Shown one piece after another: positions 29,821 through 32,789 of a DNA stretch of 64,000 nucleotides. Origin of the DNA: Paracoccus maritimus (GTDB taxonomy: Bacteria; Pseudomonadota; Alphaproteobacteria; Rhodobacterales; Rhodobacteraceae); assembly GCF_025195095.1 (NCBI RefSeq), contig NZ_JANAVZ010000002.1, positions 248,001 to 312,000 of the forward strand, read 5' to 3'. A model generated the notes under the pieces. It was not told the origin of the DNA, did no database searches, and saw only the letters and a program-made list of their open reading frames with translations. Position 1 is the first letter of the stretch. The number at the start of each line of letters is the position of its first letter. The translations under genes and the position numbers were made by a program.

Positions 29821-30074
29821 CCGGGCTTCATCTTGCCACCGTTGCCGTCGCGGCGGTCTGGCTGCTGCTGGCCTGCCTGCTGCCGTGGCTGCGCGCCCAT
29901 CATCGTCCGCGCGCCTTCTGGGCGCTGGTCGCCACGGGCGTGCCGGTGCTGGGCTGGCTGACCCTGAACTGGGGCCCGATCCTGGGCGTTGCGGGCTTCG
30001 CGCTTGGCCTTGCCGCGCTGTTCTGGCCACCCCGCCGCCATCCCCGCGATCCGATGCTGCCGCCGCTGGACTAG
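29817..30074 (+). CDS. Small DUF2484 membrane protein
   Basis: This 85-residue protein has two or three hydrophobic helices ([18 protein letters not shown], then [17 protein letters not shown], then a third) and a basic PPRRHPRD tail. It resembles the DUF2484 proteins found next to murC and murB in Rhodobacteraceae (from memory). The GTG start at 29817 overlaps the murC stop (GTGA), which argues for translation coupled to murC and therefore for a real gene. The function is unknown; position suggests an envelope-related role. Confidence 0.75.
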
Positions 30075-30084
30075 GACCGCGCGG

Positions 30085-30432
30085 GTGTCCCCCTGGCTCA
30101 TCGCAATCGCCTGCGCCTCGGGCGCCGCGCTGATCGCCGCCGCCAGCATCTGGCTGCGCCTGCGCTGGCCGCTTGCGATCCTGTCGCTGCTGCTGGCAGC
30201 CATCGCGACCCAGCTTTTCTTCGCAACCAGGGGCCAGAACGGCTTTCACGACCTTGCCGCCCTGCGCGCCCAGATGTTCACCGTCCTTCCGGCTCTGGGC
30301 GGTACGGCTCTGGCCCTGATCGTCAGCGAAAGATTTCTCCGCCGATATCCCTGGCAAAGCCTGCCGGGGGTGTTGACGCTGCTGGGGCTGGCCGCCGCAG
30401 TCGGGATGTCGGGATGGACGATGCTGCTATAG
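30085..30432 (+). CDS. Small membrane protein of unknown function
   Basis: This 115-residue frame begins with GTG 10 bp after the DUF2484 stop and codes for four hydrophobic segments (LIAIACASGAALIAAASIWL; LAILSLLLAAIATQLFFA; FTVLPALGGTALALIV; VLTLLGLAAAVGMSGWTML). Its codon usage and GC level match the upstream mur genes, unlike the DNA directly after it. I do not recognise a family. Tight spacing suggests it is the last cistron of the ftsW-murG-murC-DUF2484 transcript. Confidence 0.6.
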   Translation: MSPWLIAIACASGAALIAAASIWLRLRWPLAILSLLLAAIATQLFFATRGQNGFHDLAALRAQMFTVLPALGGTALALIVSERFLRRYPWQSLPGVLTLLGLAAAVGMSGWTMLL

Positions 30433-30477
30433 GCAAGATGGCTTGTGCAGGCCGCTTTGTGCGTCAAAGCTGATGAC

Positions 30478-31844
30478 ATGAACGAACGACATCGCATCGC
30501 CAATATCGACGATCTCAAGATCTGACGTCAGAATGGTGATCCGGACGAGGCGACCAAATTCGCCCATCGCGCCGCCACGAGGGTAGCCCCGGTTTGGATA
30601 GCGTCCGTAGTCAAGCAATGGTCACAGAAATACGATCTATCGCCTCTGCCGGCGCTGCGCTTGGGCCTTTTGATAGGGGTCGCGATTAGATGCTCATCCG
30701 ATGAGGTTCAGGTCGCGGCATCTGCAGCCGACGCTGCTTATGCAGGCTATGACGCCGCACACAAGGTGTATCGGGCAGATGACAAGGGCGCTGGCCATGC
30801 GTTGACGCGATTCGCTACGCAGTACGCGCCAACTCCAGCTATGCCGCTGTAGCAGCGTCCTCGGCCGCCGATGCATGTGCATATGCAGTCGATAGCCGTG
30901 GCGCTACCGCGTCTTGGGTCTCATTCGAGACGGATCTCAATGCAATATTTTCTGGTCGCGATCTGCTGTCATTGCCTCTCTGGCCTGAGCACAACCCGCT
31001 TTCGGGAATCTGGTCGTCCTCGATCCCGGTTCTGAAGGATGCGCCCGGCGGCGATTTCTGGATCGACTGGTATCAACGCGCCCTCGATTGCCGTCCGCAT
31101 AGCTGGTCGCTGCTGCGCGACATCGCGCTGATCGACGATACGCAGTGGAAGCAGGGCGGCGAGGCGCTGGATCGTGAAATACGCCAGATCTCGGATCGAC
31201 ATCGCTTGCTGGAAGAGGTTCGCAGGCTGAAGGCTGCGCTAAGCCAAGCCGGCTTGGACGGGATCCTTGCTCCGCATCGGCGGCACAACGACCCGCCAGA
31301 AAGACTGTGCGATCAGGCTGATGCGGCGGTTGCCGCCGCGCAGTCCGTCGTCGAGCAGCTTGAACAGGCCGAACAGGAGCTTGAAAAGCAGCAACCTTCG
31401 GCCTCTAGATTGCGCGCCGTGGCGCGGCTTCTCAGGCAGGCAGTCATTTCGGTGGTTGAGTATGGGGCAGGGCTAGCCGACGAGGTGTTGAGAGGCGCGG
31501 CCAGAGAGATCGGCGGGTCAGTGGGCAAGTGGACGGGTCCGGCGGTTGTCACCTGGATCTTGTCGCAGAATCTGGACCTGCATCGGTTGGCCGATGCGCT
31601 GCTTCAGTATGCCGACGTGTTCATTCCCTATCGATCCCTTAACGCCGGGTCCGCAAGCTGTGTACGCTCTGTGCACGGGCTGTGCCGCCCCGGTGCACGG
31701 GCTGTGCGGCCGAAATCCCTGCGTTTGCTGGCCCTGCCGCCATCGGGGCGCGCGTCGCGGCATCACGCAACGCACGCCCTGTTGCGCGGCCCGTGCAACA
31801 CCCGCGATGTTGACGCCTCGCGCGGCTCTGGCTACCAGCATCGG
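30478..31844 (+). pseudogene. Degraded foreign gene between the murC block and murB
   Basis: Two reading frames together resemble one Ala-rich protein. From 30526 the frame reads EATKFAHRAATRVAPVW...LPALRLGLLIGVAIR...[22 protein letters not shown] and stops at 30850-30852. The -1 frame, open from 30783, continues with [38 protein letters not shown], a coiled coil (EEVRRLKAA..., [15 protein letters not shown]) and hydrophobic C-terminal segments. A TGA at 30523-30525 cuts the only upstream ATG (30478) off after 15 codons. No stop codon of its own survives; the second frame runs straight into murB. Early stop, single-base frameshift and lost stop make a pseudogene. The intact-looking pattern recalls uncharacterised Ala-rich proteins of rhizobia and Rhodobacteraceae (memory). 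The true end is uncertain, probably near 31650. Confidence 0.65.
31671..31707. repeat. 15-bp direct repeat upstream of murB
   Basis: GTGCACGGGCTGTGC occurs at 31671-31685 and 31693-31707 (22-bp period), with a weaker third resemblance just upstream. It lies at the probable end of the degraded gene. The origin is unknown; it could be part of the ancestral murB leader or a junction feature. Confidence 0.6.
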
Positions 31845-32789
31845 ATGACCCTCGATCTTCCCACCCCCCGCGGCATGCTGACCCCGAACCGACCCCTCGA
31901 CAGCCTGACATGGCTGCGCGTCGGAGGCCCCGCCGACTGGCTGTTTCAGCCCGCCGATCCGCAGGATCTGGCCGAATTCCTGGCTGCGCTGGACCCCGCC
32001 GTGCCGGTCTTTCCCATGGGCGTCGGCAGCAACCTGATCGTCCGTGACGGCGGCATCCGCGGTGTGGTGGTCCGTCTGGGGCGCGGCTTCAACGGCATTG
32101 AAATTGCTGGAGAAACCGTCACTGCCGGGGCCGCCGCGCTGGATGCCCATGTCGCCCGCCGCGCCGCCGATGCGGGGCTGGACCTGACCTTCCTGCGCAC
32201 CATTCCCGGCAGTATCGGTGGTGCCGTACGGATGAATGCGGGCTGCTATGGCAGCTATGTCGCCGATCATTTAAGCTTGGCCCGCGCCGTCACCCGCGAC
32301 GGTCGCCAGATCACCCTGACGCCGCAGGATCTGAACTTCGCCTATCGTCACGCGGACCTGCCGCCGGGCGCGATCATCACCGAAGCGGTGTTCCGCGCCG
32401 CAACGGGCGACCCCGACGCGCTGCACGACAGGATGGCGCGGCAACTGGCCAGGCGCGACGACACCCAGCCGACCAAGGACCGCAGCGCCGGCTCGACCTT
32501 CCGCAACCCGGCAGGCTTCAGCTCGACCGGCCGCGACGACGACAGCCACGACCTGAAGGCATGGACGCTGATCGACCGAGCGGGCCTGCGCGGGCACAGC
32601 TGGGGCGGCGCGCAGATGTCTGAAAAACATCCGAATTTCCTGCTGAACACGGGTGGCGCGACCGCAGCCGAGCTTGAGGCATTGGGCGAGCTGGTGCGGC
32701 GGCGGGTGATGGAGGACAGCGGTCACGACCTGCAATGGGAGGTCATCCGCATCGGCGACCCGCTGCCAGACGGCGACGACCCGCGCTAG
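31845..32789 (+). CDS. murB: UDP-N-acetylenolpyruvoylglucosamine reductase
   Basis: MurB, a flavoprotein, reduces UDP-GlcNAc-enolpyruvate to UDP-MurNAc with NADPH. The 314-residue product has the FAD motifs [24 protein letters not shown] and [16 protein letters not shown], the catalytic-serine region [10 protein letters not shown] and a C-terminal [11 protein letters not shown]. The reading frame is open for 291 codons upstream through a decayed gene, so a longer start should not be accepted. The ATG at 31845 gives the family N-terminus but has no strong ribosome site; an ATG at 31875 is the fallback. Normally it would closely follow the murC group. Confidence 0.94.

Follow-up and report, generated by a model that had tools for sequence, protein, structure and literature searches.

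The window, a stretch of 64,000 nucleotides from Paracoccus maritimus, contains a cell-wall gene cluster in the order ftsW-murG-murC-DUF2484, followed by orfX, a decayed gene, a DNA element, a predicted promoter, and murB. The decayed gene belongs to a family that we name after the murC-murB interval, or slot, in which its members recur. The features of the interval and of murB are as follows.

29823-30074, plus strand: gene of the small membrane protein DUF2484, on the left side of the slot (Pfam PF10658, E 1e-18).
30085-30432, plus strand: orfX, an intact and optional open reading frame (ORF) for a small hydrophobic protein of 115 residues.
30478-31628, plus strand: decayed gene of the murC-murB slot family with a type A C-terminus (matches of the family profile in two frames, intact relatives, and C-terminal group).
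30523-30525, plus strand: in-frame TGA, the 16th codon of the decayed gene (reading frame).
30793-30827, plus strand: stretch of the frame change, in an Ala-rich region (bounded by the two profile matches).
31056-31208, plus strand: best-conserved segment within the constant N-terminal module, with the pattern FW.DWYQ..LD ... W..G ... I (alignments of the family).
31622-31644, plus strand: right-hand boundary of the exchangeable cargo; identity to the closest relative, genome G098, is 95% from approximately this point on and into murB.
31644-31791, plus strand: dispersed Paracoccus DNA element of about 150 bp (match to the element model, E 7.2e-25).
31653-31709, plus strand: 11-bp phased GTGTAC/GTGCAC array within the element (sequence).
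31717-31733, no strand assigned: palindrome of the CCAGCA..TTGCTGG type, imperfect here (sequence).
31766-31787, no strand assigned: GCAACGC..GTTGCGC palindrome, the right end of the element (sequence).
31810-31838, plus strand: predicted murB promoter, TTGACG, 17 bp, TACCAG, with the ATG 6 bp further (motif with shuffle control).
31845-32789, plus strand: murB, intact (ORF).

Homologs of orfX occupy the same place in other Paracoccus genomes; none was found in G098, and a Pfam search with orfX gave no match. Elsewhere in the window, tandem tRNA genes at 2355-2428 and 2458-2531 have identical covariance scores.

The decayed gene starts with an ATG at 30478 and is interrupted in frame by the TGA at 30523-30525. 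Two family profiles, both of which include the C-terminal piece of the window copy (30897-31628 in profile A2) and neither of which includes its N-terminal piece, recognize the gene in two parts: the first (A2) matches 30478-30792 with one TGA inside (E 2.2e-11) and 30828-31628 in a different frame without a stop (E 3.4e-97), and the second (A5) matches the pieces with E values of 2.0e-15 and 5.2e-46. Because the two matches sit in different frames, the frame change is located at 30793-30827. The second frame reads on through murB, and its first stop is that of murB itself, at 32787. An earlier note on this DNA had described one gene split over two frames near 30783-30852, with a TGA in frame at 30523 and no stop left; all three observations are confirmed, and the frame change is now placed more narrowly. 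The decay that the note proposed is supported by three separate lesions, the in-frame stop, the frame change, and the loss of the terminal stop, when the copy is set against its intact Paracoccus relatives of 389-540 residues. Intact relatives were found in six genomes with murB nearby and in one, G100, with murB elsewhere, whereas G048 contains a fragment. In the six intact relatives that were fetched together with murB, the slot gene ends about 170-310 bp before murB.

The coding remnants that had been proposed for the whole of 30433-31844 are limited to the gene at 30478-31628, and the segment at 31644-31844 is composed of the DNA element and the murB promoter. The GC content of 30433-31640 is 59.9%, compared to 63.6% in the window, 66.8% in murC, and 68.7% in murB. 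The lower GC noticed previously is thus real but mild, since 5.7% of equal-sized pieces of the window are equally low. The window copy is one decayed gene of the slot family, with which it shares the homologous N-module and the position between murC and murB.

Slot-family proteins are composed of a constant N-terminal module, in which Ala-rich helices are followed by the pattern FW..WYQ..LdG...W..L...aLI...W..G, and of helical C-terminal modules of several kinds. The N-modules of 18 proteins form one blastp cluster and their C-termini five. Single-linkage grouping of 42 proteins, from which L183 was left out as its module end was not found, gave nine C-terminal groups, four of which include members located at murC-murB or beside murC. 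The addition of members partly merged the first five groups, and some of the C-termini are therefore likely to be distantly related rather than unrelated. Three Rhodovulum alleles from the same interval have similar N-modules, with 64-69% identity over the aligned part and best blastp segments of 62% over 250 residues and 87% over 101 residues. The N-modules of R. strictum (L192) and R. euryhalinum (L199) share 62%, but their C-terminal groups differ. The C-termini of R. euryhalinum and R. steppense (L204) do not match directly and fall into one group through intermediates. A second, broken copy with another type of C-terminus is located past DUF2484 in L205. We read the modularity of the family as the outcome of in-place recombination by which ends are swapped. 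Loci L199 and L204 also share an ORF of about 400 residues (L199:6095-7321 and L204:6718-7902) that is 84% identical between them, looks permease-like by eye, and separates the slot gene from DUF2484.

Among 20 alleles compared, those of four Paracoccus genomes are nearest to the window allele, with 47-54% identity in the N-module; three Rhodovulum alleles (39-41%) and a fifth Paracoccus allele (37%) come next. The within-genus pairs listed have N-modules that are 36-69% identical where murB is 82-95% identical. Similarity of the N-modules correlates weakly with that of murB (r 0.25), a value reached in 28 of 2000 permutations (Mantel test, 21 loci). This weak tracking of murB, together with the unrelated gene that lies between flanks of 95-98% identity in the slot of G098, makes it possible that alleles were exchanged.

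The members have no informative family match in Pfam, NCBIfam, PHROGs (six members only), or PADLOC, and no family matched more than one member in the alignment scans of Pfam and NCBIfam. Near-threshold matches of single members, for example to one NCBIfam model (E 0.00052) and to FlgN (E 0.00026), were absent from a second member, and the PADLOC matches were likewise confined to single members (best E 0.0046). Profile searches against the sequences of the PDB gave nothing convincing. The AlphaFold model of the P. caeni protein (392 residues) is all-helical, with a mean pLDDT of 79.6, and 85.8 for the N-module alone. Foldseek returned nothing at E <= 0.001 from the PDB or BFVD, and the C-terminal matches listed in the fold comparison are mostly generic helical bundles. 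No description of the family was found among the papers listed by the literature searches.

The family is tied to the neighborhood of murC and murB. Nine of 121 Paracoccus genomes, including that of the window, contain family matches, all of which adjoin murC-DUF2484. In a sample of about one genome per genus, a profile search found matches in 77 of 295 Rhodobacteraceae genomes, again including that of the window. murB was found in 74 of the 76 others, and in 29 of these 74 a member lies less than 3 kb upstream of murB. All 29 are on the murB strand, and no member on the other strand was found within 5 kb upstream. The strongest matches are within 3 kb upstream of murB in 15 of 19 cases. Counted against the slot reading are the 45 of the 74 genomes without a member within 5 kb upstream of murB, in which the matches are further off or on another contig; many of these genomes are drafts, and the other-contig cases cannot be judged. 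The 45 include G145, with a member beside murC and murB 66 kb off, and G325, with a member directly downstream of murB. ORF lists of seven loci away from murB show neighbors that vary locus by locus. murC and murB flank nine of the 14 named loci, and a tenth is directly 5' of murB near a contig end. Of 72 fetched Paracoccus loci with murC, 62 have DUF2484 next to it, and the slot gene occurs on either side of DUF2484; the slot is therefore an interval and not a single site. A search of alphaproteobacteria gave matches in 9 of 385 genomes, three of which are Rhodobacteraceae (that of the window included). Searches of 72,556 plasmids and 50,697 phages with the P. caeni protein (L193) as the only query gave no matches, and since it was a single protein, distant members may be missed there; no candidate from viral contigs was confirmed.

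Intervals were fetched from 78 of the 118 other murB-bearing genomes, which with two murC-side loci gave 80 loci; L095 and L098 were excluded from the interval and promoter counts. The murC-murB interval has a median of 814 bp and a range of 46-3755 bp in 71 Paracoccus genomes, the window included, in which murC lies within 6 kb (eight further genomes without it were left out). It measures up to 1 kb in 47 of these genomes, 1-2 kb in 15, and more than 2 kb in nine. The proposal of a foreign insert in a cluster that is otherwise tight is not supported, given this variability, the position of all eight other Paracoccus matches next to murC-DUF2484, and the presence of the family just 5' of murB in 29 other genera. 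Relatives have the slot in common, but its content is not conserved in all of them. Ten cargo proteins of other intervals were compared with Pfam and include an MFS protein, a polysaccharide pyruvyl transferase, an HlyD protein, an ABC transporter, a multicopper oxidase, an FAD oxidoreductase, UvrB, a UDP-galactopyranose mutase, and two proteins without a match; only the MFS protein and one unmatched protein come from intervals with murC within 6 kb. In ten Paracoccus genomes (L072, L073, L077, L084, L105, L121, L129, L131, G100, and G048), murC and murB do not lie within 6 kb of one another, and the mur-fts cluster seems to be broken by rearrangement or a larger insertion.

The slot of G098, whose murB is 97% identical to that of the window, is without a family member. 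Identity to the window is 98% as far as the stop codon of DUF2484 and, past about 31622, 95%. Between these flanks, G098 carries an unrelated gene of 281 residues on the minus strand (L071:4788-5633), for which no Pfam or PADLOC match was found. At the right edge of the slot (L071, L075, and window positions of about 31626-31644), relatives have TAACG-like half-sites spaced about 11 bp apart, as in CCCTAACGATTCCTTAACG. Control of murB by CenR was considered and rejected, as the published CenR motif, TGA-N8-TGA (PMC9275681), is unlike this repeat.

Of 79 genomes, 64, including that of the window, have a promoter motif immediately ahead of murB, composed of TTGACN, a spacer for which 15-19 bp were allowed, and TA; after dinucleotide shuffling, the motif was found in 1.04 genomes on average and in four at most. 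The spacer is 17 bp among the matches listed, and the ATG mostly follows 6-9 bp beyond the motif. The 15 genomes without the motif include L146, in which murB begins 46 bp after murC, but long intervals occur among them as well, for example in G029 (L108), which has an intact member. murB thus apparently has its own conserved promoter, and a leaderless start is predicted because the predicted transcription start would coincide with the ATG. The earlier note held that murB expression must have been affected; with the promoter motif intact in this genome, a necessary effect is unsupported. Taken as a whole, the earlier interpretation is partly supported.

The DNA element between the decayed gene and the promoter has at its core a phased array, which matches itself at 0.50 at a lag of 11 and at 0.65 at a lag of 22; with all lags of 5-23 considered, 22 of 2000 shuffles reached 0.50. 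The genome of the window contains 21 element matches (copies L151-L171), 16 of which are strong. The element is present in at least 48 of 121 Paracoccus genomes, including that of the window, with one to at least 25 matches per genome. In 147 genomes outside Paracoccus, at least two weak matches were found, and the element appears to be nearly confined to the genus. Among the 78 other genomes fetched, 19 have it upstream of murB, where the cargo differs. Each of the 16 strong copies has a counterpart in G098 that shares at least one flank, and at least 12 share both; several are also flank-matched in G101 or G023 (the comparison covered, among the matches listed, 17 element loci in G098, 8 in G101, and 15 in G023). 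In G107, the unit of the array is different, TTATAGACGC-like, at five places (L206, L208, L210, L211, and L212), one of them at murB; such a change would be compatible with co-evolution with a trans-acting factor. Two candidate explanations of the element were rejected. A structured RNA finds no support, with a two-sided change in 1 of 21 pairs, a covariation term of -0.34, and no Rfam match there. The copies keep their flanks across species, which speaks against a mobile repeat or a recently mobile MITE. Literature searches found no description of the element.

We consider it likely that the murC-murB interval is a resident slot for the slot gene family, in which the window copy is dead and murB is served by its own promoter. 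In Rhodobacteraceae, a gene of the family recurs in the stretch bounded by the murC end and a separate promoter predicted for murB. The slot gene would be read on the mur strand, and its alleles would diversify, be exchanged, and get lost. The slot may tolerate insertions because murB is independent of read-through. The window copy would have no action, and murB would be transcribed from its own promoter. An apparent accident would then become a testable pattern, in which a core cell-wall interval is a standing slot for one rapidly diversifying family, new to the protein-family libraries searched. The independent and apparently leaderless murB promoter would be the reason why an essential cluster takes insertions unharmed. 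The comparison also brings to light a position-stable Paracoccus DNA element.

The function of the family can be addressed only tentatively from its sequences. We speculate, with the odds somewhat against it, that the product is an intracellular conflict protein of a defense-like kind, the N-module of which gates and the C-module acts; modularity, fast divergence, and patchy presence argue for such a role. A fuller version, which we regard as doubtful, is that the slot holds a single-gene immune or conflict system with a constant helical sensor module and C-terminal effector helices that can be interchanged. It would be read on the mur strand, recombine in place, and be represented in the window by a dead allele, while a co-evolving chromosome protein would bind the 11-bp array, which is GTGYACGC-like here and differs in G107.

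Other explanations of the locus were weighed against the resident slot. The constant N-part, the varied C-parts, and the displaced second copy in L205 are what a secreted polymorphic toxin with swapped C-terminal warheads would show. No known trafficking or toxin domain was found in the family, however, and no adjacent immunity gene: in eight of ten named murB-side loci, the downstream gap to the next known gene is 75-313 bp, and apart from translations of the element no ORF of at least 50 residues recurs in those eight. We regard a toxin as unlikely. It is improbable that one foreign gene, acquired horizontally, disrupted an otherwise tight mur-fts cluster, decayed, and disturbed murB, since the family is at home in the interval in Paracoccus and 29 other genera, the interval is already variable in Paracoccus, the murB promoter motif is intact, and the one query found no plasmid or phage copy, even though the GC dip, the absence of the gene from G098, where another gene sits, and the weak tracking of murB by the N-module speak for such an origin.

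The remaining explanations concern the lesions themselves. The sequence comes from one assembly only, and its frame change falls within a coding region that is Ala-rich and of low complexity, where a sequencing or assembly error could disguise an intact gene. Such an error would have to have occurred three times, in the stop, the frame change, and the lost terminal stop, and the six intact Paracoccus relatives end well before murB, which makes this explanation very improbable. The least probable explanation is a contingency gene toggled by slippage in Ala-rich repeats and caught in the off state in the window: slippage cannot restore a nonsense codon or a lost stop, and the frames of the relatives are open, although the frame change is within the Ala-rich region and the length of this region differs between relatives.

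The resident slot with a dead window copy can be compared with several known systems. At chromosomal hotspots, where single accessory genes sit between core genes, the core flanks are fixed, the content changes, and genes decay. The murC-murB slot shares these three properties but differs from such hotspots in that one gene family is over-represented, that it precedes an independent core-gene promoter, and that no plasmid or phage copy was found with one query. Polymorphic toxin systems (PMC3482391) resemble the slot family in the conserved N-terminal part, the differing C-terminal parts, and the displaced extra copy. In comparison with such systems, the slot family is strongly tied to one core-gene interval and was found without a known trafficking or toxin domain or a recurrent immunity gene. 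DUF416 (PDB 2q9r) may be similar, in fold only: residues 4-194 of the full-length AlphaFold model superimpose on it with a Z score of 13.7, just above the level of about 13 at which the tool warns for helical folds, and an rmsd of 3.0 Å over 169 residues. Its sequence identity to the slot protein is 6%. The Pfam matches of the scanned members do not include DUF416 (PF04222) at E limits of 1, 0.1, and 0.01, nor does it appear among the matches listed for the N-domain model, whose candidate list differs from that of the full-length model, and no DUF416 was found in 120 Rhodobacteraceae. The DNA element is dispersed, intergenic, and palindromic, as are REP/BIME or MITE repeats (compare PMC2817692, PMC10969869). 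Unlike these repeats, the element keeps its positions between species and is built around a phased array with an 11-bp period.
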